Of a stretch of DNA of 64,000 nucleotides, positions 9,401 to 54,315 are shown in pieces. The DNA lies in the NCBI RefSeq assembly GCF_002283555.1, contig NZ_MVOI01000004.1:62001-126000 (forward strand), in the 5' to 3' direction. Position 1 is the first letter of the stretch, and the number at the start of each line of letters is the position of its first letter. The notes beneath the pieces are model-generated. The model had not been told where the DNA came from. It made no database searches and saw nothing but the letters and a program-made list of their open reading frames with translations. This DNA is from Rubrivirga sp. SAORIC476. Lineage in GTDB: Bacteria; Bacteroidota; Rhodothermia; Rhodothermales; Rubricoccaceae. A program made the position numbers and the translations under genes.

Positions 9401-9473
9401 GGTCGAGTAGCTCAGTTGGTAGAGCAATGGACTGAAAATCCATGTGTCGGCGGTTCAAGTCCGCCCTCGACCA
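9401..9473 (+). tRNA. tRNA-Phe (GAA)
   Basis: A complete 73-nt cloverleaf. The acceptor stem is GGTCGAG/CTCGACC, the D arm GCTC...GAGC, the anticodon stem ATGGA/TCCAT encloses CTGAAAA with anticodon GAA, and the T arm GGCGG/CCGCC encloses TTCAAGT. The discriminator base is A. The 3' CCA is not encoded; the following bases are CCCC. Confidence 0.98.
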
Positions 9474-9532
9474 CCCCGCTGGGGGATTCGCCGCTCGTCG
9501 GTTGAAGATCCAGCGGAGCGCGCCCAGGCGCT

Positions 9533-9553
9533 CGCCGACCCCCGCGGTCGGCG
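9533..9553 (+). other. 8-bp inverted repeat between the two tRNA genes
   Basis: CGCCGACC at 9533-9540 pairs with GGTCGGCG at 9546-9553 across a 5-base loop. No U tract follows, but a TAGATT box at 9555-9560, 15 bases before tRNA-Asp, could be that gene's -10 element. The stem may end the tRNA-Phe transcript or be an operator; which is not decidable by eye. Confidence 0.4.
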
Positions 9554-9574
9554 GTAGATTGGGCACACCGATTC

Positions 9575-9648
9575 GGCCCGGTAGTTCAGTTGGTTAGAAC
9601 GCCTGCCTGTCACGCAGGAGGTCGCGAGTTCAAGTCTCGTCCGGGTCG
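9575..9648 (+). tRNA. tRNA-Asp (GTC)
   Basis: A 74-nt cloverleaf with acceptor stem GGCCCGG/CCGGGTC, D arm GTTC...GAAC, anticodon stem CCTGC/GCAGG enclosing CTGTCAC with anticodon GTC, T arm GCGAG/CTCGT and the expected G73 discriminator. The 3' CCA is not encoded. Confidence 0.98.
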
Positions 9649-44252: not shown

Positions 44253-45035
44253 TCAGGGGAGGCTGGGCCGGTTGCGCGGCGTCAGGTCTGTGAACAGCGC
44301 CTCGTCGATCTCCAGGAGCGCCTCAGGCTCAGTGAGGATCGCCGAACCGCCTGCCCGCGACGCCTTCTCGGTCGCGAACGAGAGCGGACCCAGAGGCGTG
44401 TCGAGTTCGATCGGGTCGAGCCAGATGAAGTCGCCCTCGTTCCCGCTCTCCAACACGAAGGCCCAGCCGGTGGTCGCACCCGAGCCGTCGTCCACTGCCA
44501 GCCAGTAGCGGTCCCCGGGTGTCAGGCCGACGCCCTCGAAGGACAGCGCGAGGCCGACGACGTTGTCCCGGGTCTCGACGGCCCGGACCACGCCGGGGTC
44601 GAACACCTTCAGGGGTGCCAGGAGCCAGTAGCTGTCGTTGATGAACCGGCTCTGCGCGCCCGTCAACTGCTCGGACGCGATCTCGCCAGAGAGGATGGTC
44701 CCGTTCAAGGCCGCCTGGCCCACTGGAGATGCCGGGTCGAAGGTCGAGGGGGAGAACACCGCCACGACGACGCTGTCCGCGCCGATCTGGAACTCGCTCC
44801 GGACCCGGTCGCCTGTCTTGTCCCACACGTGCCAGTTGCGAGCGACCTCCACAGAGTCGCGGACGACGGCCCACTCGAAAGCGATGCCTGGCAGCGCCTC
44901 CCAGGTGTCGAGCCCGCCCGCAGCCTCGGTGACGCGGAAGGCGAGGCTGTCGGCCGCCGTGTCGAGGCGGGGCGCGTCGGGCGACCCGCAGCCGACCAGC
45001 GCGAGGAGCAGAGCGGCGAGGGAGGGCGTGCGCAT
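44253..45035 (-). CDS. putative lipoprotein of unknown function
   Basis: 260 residues beginning MRTPSLAALLLALVGCG, a clear lipobox. The mature part is beta-rich with no known motif I can name with confidence. GGLDTWEALPGIAFEW and the DRVRSEFQIGADSVVVAVF segments are reminiscent of exported LolA-fold-like carriers seen in this phylum, but that is only an impression. It is convergent with the peptidase gene, three bases apart. Confidence 0.65.
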   Translation of the reverse strand: MRTPSLAALLLALVGCGSPDAPRLDTAADSLAFRVTEAAGGLDTWEALPGIAFEWAVVRDSVEVARNWHVWDKTGDRVRSEFQIGADSVVVAVFSPSTFDPASPVGQAALNGTILSGEIASEQLTGAQSRFINDSYWLLAPLKVFDPGVVRAVETRDNVVGLALSFEGVGLTPGDRYWLAVDDGSGATTGWAFVLESGNEGDFIWLDPIELDTPLGPLSFATEKASRAGGSAILTEPEALLEIDEALFTDLTPRNRPSLP

Positions 45036-45172
45036 GGGCGAGGGGAGAGGGCGTTGGGCGAGAACGACATGGCCGGATCTGGCTCGGAGAGCCGTCCCGC
45101 CGAAGCTCCGAAGCCAGAAGGGTACGATGTGGACGGGGGTGGATATGTGGGGAACTTAACCGTTGGTTCATC

Positions 45173-45201
45173 TTGACTCCGCAGGATCTCCCCGGTACTA
45201 T
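45173..45201 (+). promoter_or_regulatory. sigma70-like promoter heading into the gene-free region
   Basis: TTGACT at 45173-45178 and TACTAT at 45196-45201 are separated by exactly 17 bases, the optimum spacing. It stands out in a GC-rich genome and no coding frame begins within range on the plus strand. A transcript would start near 45208, at the first hairpin. Confidence 0.6.
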
Positions 45202-45207
45202 GGGTCA

Positions 45208-45846
45208 CTGCCTTCGGGCAGGCGGCCCTCCGGGGTCGCGTTCCTTGACACAGTGCGTCTCATTGCTGGAAGAGGGCTTCCTCACGGAATGCCCTGCGTG
45301 TACAAGGCCCCGCCTCGGTGGGGCGAGAGGAGCGTCGCCCTCCAGGCCATTCATCGAACGGCCACCGAAGGCCCTCACGGGCCCTCCGGACGACCCGACT
45401 CTCCGCTCGTACGCTGGACCCATTCTCGCCCCGACTCTCTGTGAAAAGAGAGATCCGGGTCGACATTTTGGTGGCCAGACCGTACCGCACGCCCGACCGA
45501 ACTTCGGTTCGGAAGGACAGCCCCGGCTGCTTCGGTGGGCGGGATGCTGTGGGCGAGACGTCCCGAGAGGCTTTCGAGCCCCGTGACGCCCGACCTGTTC
45601 CGTACAGGAGGACCCAGCACGCGCGACGGACGCGACCGGGGATTCGTCCTCGATCGCTCAGACGCCCTGCGAAGACCCCCACGTCGTCGCTGTCAGAGCC
45701 CGCTGTCTCAGCGGTCCTCAGACGGCCCACGACGGTCTCGTAGACGGACGCACTCGGCCCTCGAACCGGAGCTACGGCTCGCGGGACGATGGGCCATCAA
45801 GGATCTCGAACGGGGGCCTGCCGCTTGTCGGTGGGCCCCCGTTCAC
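45208..45846 (+). ncRNA. candidate large structured non-coding RNA, class unknown
   Basis: About 640 bases between a sigma70-like promoter and an 11-bp stem at 45808-45818/45834-45844. Perfect local stems include CTGCC-TTCG-GGCAG at 45208-45221, GCCCCGC-CTCG-GTGGGGC at 45307-45324 (one G-U), GGCCC-TCAC-GGGCC at 45370-45383, a CTCTCT/AGAGAG hairpin with GTGAAA loop inside an outer CCCG/CGGG pair at 45430-45459, CCGAAC-TTCG-GTTCGG at 45497-45512, GGCT-TTCG-AGCC at 45569-45580, and CCGCTG-TCT-CAGCGG at 45700-45714. Three TTCG tetraloops and A-rich loops are unusual for coding or random DNA here. It does not contain the conserved segments of RNase P RNA, tmRNA, SRP RNA or a group II intron domain V. 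Function and exact ends are inferred. Confidence 0.4.
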
Positions 45847-46102: not shown

Positions 46103-46939
46103 ATGGAACCGATCCGACCGCCTCGAGGCCCAGTACTGCGCGCTCGCCGTGCGGCGAGCATCCGGTCGAGCGCGCGCGCGCGCGCCGCGGTGCCCAACTT
46201 CTTCACCCTGATGAACCTGCTGGCCGGGTTCTTCTCGCTGATCCAGACGGCCGCGGGCAACCTGGAAGCCGCCGCCTGGCTGGTGGTGCTCGCAGCGTTC
46301 TTCGACCTCCTCGATGGCCTGATGGCCCGCCTGGTGGGTGTCTCGGGCGAGTTCGGCGTCGAGCTGGACTCGCTGAGTGACATCGTCTCGTTCGGCGTCG
46401 CGCCGAGCTTTCTGCTGTACATGTTCGGGCTGAACCAGCTCGGGCCGATGTGGGGAGGGTTGCTCGCGAGCCTGCCGGCCCTCTTCGGCGCCGTTCGGCT
46501 GGCCAAGTTCAACTCGATGGCCGAGGCGGGCGCCAAGTCGACCGAGTTCACCGGGCTGCCGATCCCCGCGCAGGCCGGGACGGTGGTCGTGTTCATCCTC
46601 ACCTTCATCGGCCGCCCCTGGTTCGACGTGCTGGCGAGGCCGCAGCTCTCGGTCCTGATCACGCTGGTCGTCGGTCTCTCGGCCCTGATGGTGGCGCCGA
46701 TCTCGTTTCCTGCGCTCCCTCAGCCCAACCGCGCCAACCTGCGGACGTACCGGTACCGGTTTCTCCTCTTCCTGCTGGCGATGTTGCTCGGCGTCATCTT
46801 CCAGGAGATCGGTCTGCTGGTCGCCGCCGTTATCTACCTGCTGTGGGGCCTTGGTCGGGCATTGCTGTGGGCCGTCCGCGTGGCTACCGACACGGAGCCG
46901 CTCGCGGATGCCGACGCGGACCCTGGCGTGACGCCGTAG
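46103..46939 (+). CDS. pssA: CDP-diacylglycerol-serine O-phosphatidyltransferase
   Basis: Makes phosphatidylserine, the precursor of phosphatidylethanolamine, in the inner membrane. 278 residues and strongly hydrophobic. It begins at VPNFFTLMNLLAGFFSL and shows the CDP-alcohol phosphatidyltransferase motif DLLDGLMARLVGVSGEFGVE followed by LDSLSD, with all the aspartates present. The membrane topology and the FPALPQPN loop agree with bacterial type II PssA. The Arg-rich N-terminus before VPNFF is longer than usual, so the true start could be a little further in. The partner decarboxylase gene (psd) is not next to it. Confidence 0.92.
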   Translation: MEPIRPPRGPVLRARRAASIRSSARARAAVPNFFTLMNLLAGFFSLIQTAAGNLEAAAWLVVLAAFFDLLDGLMARLVGVSGEFGVELDSLSDIVSFGVAPSFLLYMFGLNQLGPMWGGLLASLPALFGAVRLAKFNSMAEAGAKSTEFTGLPIPAQAGTVVVFILTFIGRPWFDVLARPQLSVLITLVVGLSALMVAPISFPALPQPNRANLRTYRYRFLLFLLAMLLGVIFQEIGLLVAAVIYLLWGLGRALLWAVRVATDTEPLADADADPGVTP

Positions 46940-51890: not shown

Positions 51891-53230
51891 TCCCCCACGA
51901 ACGCGAGCACCAGCTCTGGGAAGGCGACCACGAGGCCCAGCGCGAGCAGCTGGATGGCCACGAACGGAAGGGCGCCCCGGTAGATCTGGCCCGTCGACAC
52001 GTCGGGCGGCGCCACCCCGCGGAGGTAGAACAGCGAGAACCCGAACGGTGGGGTCAGAAACGAGGTCTGGAGATTCATCCCCAGGATCACGCCGAACCAG
52101 ACGAGGTCGATGCCCAGCGCGGCGGCGGCGGGCGCCAGCAGCGGGACCACGATGAAGGCGATCTCGAAGAAGTCGATGAAGAAGCCCAGCACGAACACGA
52201 GCACGTTCGCTACCAGCAGCAGCCCCACCACTCCGCCCGGCAGCCCGGTCAGCGCCTCCTCGATCCACAGGTCGCCGTAGAGGCCGCGGAAGACCAGCGC
52301 GAATGCGGTCGAGCCGACGAGCAGGATCAGGACCATCGTGGTCAGCTTCGCGGTGGACCGGGCGGCGTCCCAGACCAGCGGGCGCGACAGCCGCCGGTTG
52401 AGTGCCGTCAGCACGAGCGCGCCGACTGCCCCGAGGGCGCCCGCCTCGGTGGGCGTGGCGACACCCGCGAAAATGCTCCCGAGCACGACCAGGATGAGCA
52501 GCAGCGGGGGGAGCAACACCGTCACGACGCGGCGGACCAGCGCCCAGCCCTGCTCGGTCCGTTCTTCGAGCGGCAGCGCGGGCGCGGCCCCGGGGTGTCG
52601 CCACGCGACCCAGCCCACGTAGAGCGCGAACATCGTCGCCAGCATCACGCCGGGCACGAGCGCTCCCGCGAACAGCGCGCCGACGCTCACGCCCAACTGG
52701 TCGCCGAGCACGATCAGGACGATGGAGGGCGGCACGATCTGGCCGAGCGTCCCCGACGCCGCCACCGTCCCGGCTGCGAAGGAGGGCTTGTAGCCGTGCC
52801 CCAGCATCACCGGCAGCGCGATCGCGCCCATCGCGACCACGCTCGCGCCGACGACGCCGGTCGCTGCGGCCAGCAGCGCCCCCACCAGGACGACCGCCAG
52901 CGCCAGTCCGCCGCGCACGCGCCCGAACAGCGCGCCGATGGTCGTCAGCAGGTCTTCCGCGAGGCGGCTCTTCTCCAGGATGACGCCCATGAAGATGAAG
53001 TACGGGATCGCGAGCAGCACCGGATTCTGCATGATCCCGAACAGCCGATCGCCCAGCGCGAGCAGGAACGGCGGGTCGAAGTAGCCCGTCGCCAGTCCCA
53101 GCAGCGCGAACAGCACCGAGACACCGCCGATAGCGAACGCGACCGGGTAGCCCGAGAACACGAGCGCCAGCACGACGCCGACCATGATCGGCCCCAGCCA
53201 GTCGGCGACGTGGGCGAGGAGCGGCTCCAT
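51887..53230 (-). CDS. dctM: TRAP transporter large permease (DctM)
   Basis: A 447-residue membrane protein with about twelve hydrophobic segments. It carries the TRAP large-subunit motifs IPYFIFMGVILEKSRLAEDL, SGTLGQIVPPSI and ATPTEAGALGAVGAL, and GMNLQTSFLTPPFGFSLFYL near the C-terminus. Paired with DctQ upstream (one base between the genes) it forms a Na+-driven importer for an organic acid caught by the binding lipoprotein at 50763. That binding-protein gene is convergent to this one rather than in the same operon, which is less usual. Confidence 0.92.
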   Translation of the reverse strand: MEPLLAHVADWLGPIMVGVVLALVFSGYPVAFAIGGVSVLFALLGLATGYFDPPFLLALGDRLFGIMQNPVLLAIPYFIFMGVILEKSRLAEDLLTTIGALFGRVRGGLALAVVLVGALLAAATGVVGASVVAMGAIALPVMLGHGYKPSFAAGTVAASGTLGQIVPPSIVLIVLGDQLGVSVGALFAGALVPGVMLATMFALYVGWVAWRHPGAAPALPLEERTEQGWALVRRVVTVLLPPLLLILVVLGSIFAGVATPTEAGALGAVGALVLTALNRRLSRPLVWDAARSTAKLTTMVLILLVGSTAFALVFRGLYGDLWIEEALTGLPGGVVGLLLVANVLVFVLGFFIDFFEIAFIVVPLLAPAAAALGIDLVWFGVILGMNLQTSFLTPPFGFSLFYLRGVAPPDVSTGQIYRGALPFVAIQLLALGLVVAFPELVLAFVGD

Positions 53231-53755
53231 TCAGCGACCGGCGGGCGCACGGCCCGCGATCTCGGCTACGGCGCGGACCGCCTGCACGAGCGCCTGGAGC
53301 GCCAGCAGCCCGATCCCGAGCAGCACGAGCAGCTTGACCGGCCACCGCACCAGACCTCCAGCGTCGAGCGCGCCCTCCCGCAACGTCACCGACTCGACGA
53401 CGGCAGGCCACGACGCCCACAGCACGAGTGCGCAGAAGGGCAGGAGCAGGACGACGGTCCCGATCAGGTCCACCCAGGCTCGGCGCGTCGGGGAGAGGCG
53501 CCCGTAGACCACGTCCACCCGGACGTGCGCATCCTCGGCGAGCACCCACGCTGCGCCGAGCAGGAAGACGCCGCTGAACAGCATCCACTGCACGTCGCCG
53601 ATGGCGTTGAGTGCGGGCGTGATGCCCAGCACGGGGGCGAGGTAGCGAAGCACGGCTCCGAGCGCTCCGGCCCCGACCATCACCACAATGAGGCGGGCGC
53701 ACAGCCACCCGATGGCGGCACTCAAGCGGTCGGCGAGGCGAAGGACGCGGGACAT
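53231..53755 (-). CDS. dctQ: TRAP transporter small permease (DctQ)
   Basis: 174 residues with four membrane helices. It begins MSRVLRLADRLSAAIGWL and contains the family motif MLFSGVFLLGAAWVLAEDAHVRVDVVYGRLSP. It pairs with the large permease directly downstream (stop at 53231-53233, large permease start at 53228-53230). Together with the binding lipoprotein it makes a three-part importer. Confidence 0.88.
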   Translation of the reverse strand: MSRVLRLADRLSAAIGWLCARLIVVMVGAGALGAVLRYLAPVLGITPALNAIGDVQWMLFSGVFLLGAAWVLAEDAHVRVDVVYGRLSPTRRAWVDLIGTVVLLLPFCALVLWASWPAVVESVTLREGALDAGGLVRWPVKLLVLLGIGLLALQALVQAVRAVAEIAGRAPAGR

Positions 53756-53850
53756 GTCCGAACGTACTGACAGGGAGACGACGGACGCTCACCCGCCGCT
53801 CGCCCATGTCGGCCCGCTCCTCCATGGTGCCGAGGCCGACGGGACGCGTG

Positions 53851-54315
53851 TCACATCTCGGCCATCAGCGTCCGCATCGCGCCCACCGCGAGCCCATCCA
53901 CGTGCTCGTTGAGGGGGACGCCTGCATGACCCTTGACCTTCACCCACGTCACCTCGTGGCGCTGGTTCTGCGCGTCGAGGCGCTCCCAGAGGTCGCGGTT
54001 CAGCACTGGCGACTTGTCGGCCTTCCTCCAGCCGCGCTTCTTCCAGCCGTCGATCCAGCGGGCATTGAAGGCGTTGATGACGTAGGCGCTGTCCGAGTGG
54101 AGGCGAACGCGGCAGGGCTCTCGGAGGGCTTCCAGGGCCTCGGCCGCGGCGCGCAGTTCCATCCGGTTGTTGGTGGTCTCCGCCTCGGCGCCCTTGATGT
54201 CGCGGGTGATCTCGTCGGGCGGCGAGCCGTAGATGAGGTGCGCGCCCCAGCCGCCGGGGCCCGGGTTGCCCGAGCATGCGCCGTCGGTATAGATGGTAAC
54301 GTCTTTCAGAGGCAT
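53851..54315 (-). CDS. rnhA: ribonuclease HI
   Basis: 154 residues, as in E. coli RNase HI. It degrades the RNA of RNA-DNA hybrids in the cytoplasm. The catalytic residues are visible: the Asp in [16 protein letters not shown], the Glu in [13 protein letters not shown], the Asp in HSDSAYVI, and a final Asp in [13 protein letters not shown]. The basic loop ([20 protein letters not shown]) is also present. Start 54315 ([12 protein letters not shown]) matches the family. It is divergent from obg. Confidence 0.95.

Follow-up and report, generated by a model that had tools for sequence, protein, structure and literature searches.

A large structured non-coding RNA of the Rhodothermales with a predicted small antisense partner

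The intergenic block upstream of pssA in Rubrivirga

The window analyzed here, a stretch of 64,000 nucleotides from the genome of Rubrivirga sp. SAORIC476 (G000), contains a gene-free block between a divergent gene and a pssA-like phosphatidyltransferase gene (Table 1). The latter, whose nearest named relative belongs to a Rubrivirga MAG (87%), is followed by PurS and ClpS-like genes. The promoter proposed for the block in a first-pass annotation was present, with its -35 element TTGACT at 45173 and its -10 element TACTAT at 45196, separated by a spacing of 17. The TTCG, CTCG and GTGAAA hairpins named there were likewise all found in their places, and the only two TTCG hairpins with five perfect base pairs in the whole 64 kb both lie inside the block. 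The terminal stem had been described as 11 bp long and needed correction to 16 pairs. Unlike the window RNA, most relatives end in a U-run terminator.

Table 1. Features of the large RNA locus in the window (positions are those of the window).
Feature	Position	Strand	Basis or remark
Divergent flanking gene, no Pfam match	44253..45035	-	same neighbor in genera g2, g3
TGTGGA / GTGGATA / TGTGGG repeats, counterpart of the DnaA-box-like array of relatives	45128..45155	+	sequence
Sigma70-type promoter TTGACT-17-TACTAT	45173..45201	+	sequence; predicted start near 45208
Large structured non-coding RNA (supported by comparison)	45208..45846	+	homology, fold z -7.2, covariation, no codon signal
5' UUCG hairpin	45208..45221	+	position equals GUGCCUUCGGGCAC / GUGCCUGACGGCAC of relatives; helix 2
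Hairpin CTGCCTTCGGGCAG	45208		
Closing helix P1, 5' strand UUCCUUGA	45241..45248	+	consensus fold, helix 4
Helix GUGCGUC/GACGCAC, 5' strand	45253..45259	+	helix 5, unchanged in three congeneric species
Decayed counterpart of the small RNA's second target	45265..45275	+	sequence comparison
Hairpin CCCCGCCTCGGTGGGG	45308		
Hairpin CTCTCTGTGAAAAGAGAG	45435		
Hairpin CGAACTTCGGTTCG	45498		
Hairpin TGCTTCGGTGG	45528		
Helix GUGCGUC/GACGCAC, 3' strand GACGCAC	45747..45753	+	helix 5
P1, 3' strand UCAAGGA	45797..45803	+	consensus fold
Terminal hairpin, 16 pairs	45808..45844	+	helix 32; without clear U-run
CDP-alcohol phosphatidyltransferase (pssA-like) gene	46103..46939	+	neighbor also in f1, f10, sometimes after psd

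Against dinucleotide shuffles, the predicted fold of the + strand (-342 kcal/mol) had a z score of -7.2 and that of the - strand one of -3.3. The excess stability of -44.7 kcal/mol made 45208-45846 the most over-stable fold of the window, well below the 146 background windows (-1.5 ± 8.6, minimum -23.9 kcal/mol), and the earlier impression that stability features are concentrated in this block was borne out. The covariance search proposed in the first-pass annotation did not refute its reading, as no Rfam family matched any tested member at gathering or permissive thresholds (zero matches among 4227 families, Rfam 15). No conserved segment of RNase P RNA or tmRNA had been noticed in the block; consistent with this, the covariance models of both (RF00010 and RF00023) gave no match in the block, and both genes lie elsewhere in the genome (rnpB at G000:C2:121261, tmRNA at G000:C6:123354). 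Across the window, Rfam models matched two tRNA genes at 9401-9648 on the + strand and nothing else.

The whole block, from promoter to terminal hairpin, is kept in the same place at 70-71% identity in two of the three congeners (G001 and G003). No copy was found in the third, G002, whose two flanking genes are on different contigs. Both congeners retain the -35 element TTGACT, with TACTAT or TACCAT as the -10 element. An alignment of the window genome with G001 and G003 yielded a three-way consensus fold of 222 pairs, in which 95% of the 659 pair cells were paired. Double compensatory pairs numbered 30, compared with 10.7 ± 2.6 in shuffled alignments (0/500 as high) and 2-7 when the alignment was slid by 1-3 columns, so that the stems, whose conservation in relatives had been named as a check, showed covariation far above both controls. 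High G+C (~68%) and long chance ORFs running across the block could point to a compositional artefact or an overlooked coding sequence, but this explanation is excluded by the dinucleotide-preserving shuffles, the slid controls and the codon-position test, and we regard its probability as negligible. The trio showed no codon-position signal and no conserved protein frame across the block; substitutions were even over codon positions and indels were mostly of 1-2 bases, so the block does not code for protein, as its description as gene-free implied. Comparison of the three genomes thus supports 45208-45846 as a real, structured, stand-alone non-coding RNA of ~640 bases. With stems conserved, no Rfam match and no protein frame, the original proposal of a large structured RNA of a possibly new class stands.

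Relatives of the RNA across the Rhodothermales

A model of the large RNA core (R2) matched 59 of 114 Rhodothermales genomes at E < 1e-4, with one copy in each; this count includes three genomes, those of the window's genus, that had entered the R2 seed. Matches spanned families f1, f2, f5-f10 and f12-f14, whereas nothing fell below E 0.003 in ~370 other genomes of the phylum. The exact core pattern was present in 7 of the 114 genomes of the order (reversed control, 0), and viral, plasmid and phage records gave no core match. The class was therefore found only in Rhodothermales as far as tested, in line with the suggestion that it is lineage-specific. A match in G030 fell in an ORF-rich stretch without sign of an RNA and looks like chance. 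No paper on this RNA was found in a literature search whose reach left out most subscription journals.

Members range in length from ~450 nt (G004) to ~1000 nt (G005), with constant ends and core and a variable interior; a tandem array of UUCG hairpins is expanded in G005 and G008. The g3 RNAs carry in their 5' part an array of ~29-31-nt units, mostly with a UUCG hairpin (L058:1670-1990 and, on the minus strand, L060:2200-1950), and the L058 array contains a 120-nt super-repeat whose copies are 86% alike. The RNAs of g2, g3 and f10 share the core TTCCTTGACGCGACTGA...CCAGGCTGCATGAGG. Homologues in g2 and g3 occupy the same address as the window RNA, with the divergent gene on one side and pssA or psd-pssA on the other, and those of f10 lie upstream of pssA or psd. 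This recurrent position in the window's family and f10 would suit a cis-regulatory, riboswitch-like leader of the downstream pssA. Such a role is nevertheless extremely unlikely: the terminal hairpin ends ~259 nt before the gene, most relatives have strong intrinsic terminators, and the neighbors vary by family, f5 members being flanked by genes for a rhomboid protease and, in convergent orientation, a HAD hydrolase. These last two genes abut in G031 (L258) and G091 (L252) of family f13, which indicates that the locus was lost or never gained there. Behind the rhomboid gene of families without an R2 match no diverged RNA was recognized. Several lineages of the order lack the locus, so it is not essential to the Rhodothermales.

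The core has drifted in the window's genus, and a profile built without this genus gave the window core an E value of about 6.5 in a 0.56-Mb search, which is not significant. Membership of the window RNA therefore rests on other features: its gene address, which matches that of g2, g3 and f10 members; the promoter motif GTTCAYCTTGACT shared with the syntenic G004; the 5' hairpin followed by GTTCCTTGA; the helix P1 between the 5' core and the 3' end; the terminal hairpin; and collinear similarity. The 5' strand of P1, UUCCUUGA, is one of the best conserved motifs in the RNA family, and the role of its 3' strand is filled in relatives by CGCGUCAAGG, GCGUCAAGG, GUCGCGUCAGGAA or CGCGUUGAGGAA. Similarity of the window RNA and its G001 and G003 counterparts to homologues, which have a UUCCUUGA..GCAYGAGG-type 5' core behind a 5' hairpin, was collinear but weak, with empirical p values from <0.0003 to >0.1 per comparison (mostly 0.0003-0.02, some not significant). 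On these features the window RNA very probably belongs to the two-RNA class described below.

The small antisense RNA and the junction of the large RNA

Nearly all members outside the window's genus have a second RNA gene of ~90 nt, with its own predicted promoter and terminator, on the same strand and 200-580 nt upstream of the large RNA. Its product repeats the 36-nt 5' core of the large RNA, CGCGACUGAG-linker-GGCUGCAUGAGG, in antisense, with a hairpin breaking the copy in two. The two arms of the small RNA, CUCAUGCYGCC and CUCAGUCGCG, are conserved and form the reverse complement of this core in antiparallel order, while the hairpin between them is variable in sequence. A model of the small RNA (R1) gave E values of 1e-7 to 1e-23 in families f1, f2, f5, f7, f10 and f12; in f13 and f14 the small RNA was read upstream by eye and not from R1. 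The model had no match in the window genome, and a weak match in G001 (C184) proved to be coding sequence. No upstream small antisense RNA gene was found in the window, where only 137 bp separate the flanking gene from the promoter, and the window member is a solo derivative of the class.

Pairing between arms and core was assessed in 47 genomes, where 945 of 1034 cells held standard pairs. Reassigning partners between genomes gave 925 ± 2.4 pairs, and 0 of 2000 trials reached 945, a result that looks stronger than the independent events (about four) warrant given the relatedness of the genomes. Because such reassignment disrupts relatedness along with pairing, and because the automatic arm search was doubtful in some genomes (G017, G032, G041, G045, G047 and G102), separate double changes weigh more. 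These were CAUGU/ACAUG in f2 (G009, G043), CUCC/GGAG in f12 (G019) and UUCAUG/CAUGAA in f13 (G074). A free search in shuffled upstream DNA with wobble allowed also reached 17-18/22, so that the score of a single genome is no proof, whereas the fixed position and sequence are. Cofolding in 10 genomes gained -20 to -33 kcal/mol, compared with -6 to -11 kcal/mol with a shuffled small RNA. Comparison across genomes shows that most members of the class comprise two genes, a predicted large RNA being accompanied by a predicted small antisense RNA.

The small RNA can carry a third element, AUGGGCA, matching a UGCCCAU loop close to the large RNA's 3' end. It was present in both partners in f2, f5, f7 and f12 and in neither in f10 and in g2 and g3 of f1; in f5 this contact surrounds the apical loop AUCGU-GUGCCCAU-ACGAU. 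The main rival to the switch proposed below is a two-piece RNA, in which the small RNA would permanently belong to the complex and complete the large RNA's fold through contacts at two or three sites. The third contact near the 3' end, found in both partners or neither, would suit such a subunit, as would the almost invariant arms, an order and spacing fit for a multi-way junction, and the covariation of the two RNAs. We nevertheless consider a permanent two-piece RNA rather unlikely, as each of the two genes has a promoter of its own, preceded by sites that differ between them, the large RNA of the window's genus is fully structured although no small RNA was detected there, and the pairing destroys helices of the large RNA, P1-P3, that covary in their own right.

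These helices were defined in a consensus fold of eight f5 sequences, where P1 pairs UUCCUUGACGCGA with the 3' end, P2 is GAGUCUC/GAGACUC and P3 is the hairpin GGCUGC...AGCC. Double changes affected 65 of the 163 pairs in this fold, compared with 30 ± 3.5 in shuffled and 15-21 in slid alignments. Since P1-P3 are built from the strand targeted by the small RNA, closure of the junction and pairing with the small RNA are mutually exclusive. Both targets have drifted in the window's genus. The first, CGCGACUG in relatives, is replaced by one strand of a new cis helix, GUGCGUC/GACGCAC, which is invariant in three species, and the counterpart of the second reads GCUGGAAGAGG in the window and GCUGCACGAGG in its congeners, compared with GGCUGCAUGAGG in other families. 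Loss of the partner together with decay of its target is what a real interaction predicts, and the genus, having lost both, serves as an evolutionary control.

Promoter sites, the proposed switch and known systems

Sites of the TGTGGA or TGTGNATA type were found upstream of the large RNA in 42 of 46 genomes, at a density of 16 per kb compared with 0.23 in flanking DNA; exact TTATNCACA 9-mers occurred at 0.00-0.015 per kb in the sampled chromosome. The dnaA genes of G015, G019 and G029 carry the same TGTGGATAA-type sites upstream, so that the array sites look like DnaA boxes, and their sequence makes it likely that this is what they are. TGTGGA-type repeats also precede the block in the window and in both congeners, the window versions being weak. 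Upstream of the small RNA a different motif, GTTATTG, was found in 44 of 46 genomes, usually in two copies spaced by 52-56, 62-64, 73-76 or 84-85 nt. These spacings correspond to whole helical turns, as if one factor bound both sites on the same face. Examples of such pairs, reading CCGTTATTG/CTGTTATTG, are those of L060 (minus strand), L079 and L175.

We lean towards interpreting the two genes as an RNA switch, in which a closing junction would be opened by antisense invasion and synthesis would be tied to DnaA. DnaA bound to the promoter boxes would link synthesis of the large RNA to the replication initiator, and a putative regulator on the two helically phased GTTATTG sites would set the level of the small RNA. 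By binding the nascent large RNA, the small RNA may block the closing of P1-P3 and so inactivate or destabilize it; once closed, the large RNA would be active and work in trans, either as RNA or within an RNP. In the window's genus, with the antisense gene lost, the targets decayed and P1 reinforced by GUGCGUC/GACGCAC, the RNA would be permanently closed. From these comparisons we infer transcription of both RNAs, repression by the small RNA, control by DnaA and trans action of the closed form. More tentatively, the system could be a DnaA-coupled chromosomal switch that links the initiator to cell physiology, with the partner-less genus locked shut in cis; we hold this broader interpretation to be possible but doubtful. 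The small antisense partner with its co-varying contacts makes the pairing predictions testable by compensatory mutations, and the DnaA-box-like promoter sites make the link to the replication cycle directly testable.

In type I systems such as hok/sok and OrzO/ZorO, a helix closing the 5' end on the 3' end competes with antisense pairing, and the antisense gene is adjacent. The Rhodothermales locus resembles them in the competition of 5'-3' closure with antisense pairing and in its neighboring antisense gene, and the complementarity of the small RNA to the 5' part is likewise interrupted. The large RNA might accordingly be the mRNA of a small membrane toxin with the small RNA as antitoxin, but unlike those systems it has no conserved or hydrophobic ORF. 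No ORF was conserved beyond the level of the reverse strand, hydrophobic short ORFs were no commoner than expected (4 of 50 RNAs, compared with 11% in shuffles), and the window trio lacked a codon-position signal; we judge a toxin-antitoxin function very unlikely.

In split tmRNA, two RNA pieces pair at separate sites, as the two RNAs here are predicted to do; unlike that case, an ordinary one-piece tmRNA was present elsewhere in 9/9 genomes tested. The ColE1 RNAI/RNAII system has a folded RNA of ~500 nt whose 5' region is the target of a small antisense RNA (see also PMC11012335). The likeness lies in the antisense RNA aimed at the 5' portion of a long folded partner, whose co-transcriptional folding it would alter, and the corresponding pairing is seen by sequence in relatives of the window's genus and not in that genus itself. 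Unlike in ColE1, both Rhodothermales genes are on the same strand, with the antisense gene 200-580 nt upstream and split by a hairpin, and the locus is chromosomal, with no plasmid and no origin. A long folded RNA, an antisense RNA to its 5' region and DnaA-box-like sites could still suggest that the large RNA serves as a preprimer of the RNAII type or marks the chromosome origin, with the small RNA as an analogue of RNAI. This is highly improbable: by GC skew the locus lies in the middle of an arm in G032 and a long way from the origin in G003, dnaA is 0.45 Mb away in G019, 0.73 Mb in G015 and 2.35 Mb in G003, and some lineages lack the locus. A chromosome origin at the locus is ruled out by this skew sampling and these distances. 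By its logic the system is closest to ColE1 RNAI/RNAII, and to hok/sok for the 5'-3' closure; being away from the origin and lacking a conserved ORF, it belongs to neither group.

The E. coli loci datA and DARS are non-coding stretches of the chromosome that act on DnaA at a distance from oriC (PMC5010248). They do so as DNA, whereas the boxes described here lie directly upstream of the promoter of a structured RNA. OLE, GOLLD, ROOL and raiA are large ornate bacterial RNAs of unknown function (PMC12286853), which the Rhodothermales RNA resembles in size and in its elaborate covarying fold. It differs from them in having no gathering-score match to OLE, GOLLD, ROOL or other Rfam 15 classes. To our knowledge, none of these RNAs has an antisense RNA of its own or a promoter with an array of DnaA boxes. 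We regard the RNA as new as a class and as an arrangement, although the principle of antisense control is old; being order-wide, the class extends the large bacterial RNAs beyond OLE, GOLLD, ROOL and raiA.

Two minor observations concern chromosomal position and strand composition. On a 4.71-Mb contig of G003 the locus (L004, G003:C1:2793362) lies almost exactly opposite dnaA (441579), a position absent in G015 and G019 and thus probably due to chance. Within the window, AT skew reached +0.30 over 2 kb at 52001-54000, far from the rest of the window.
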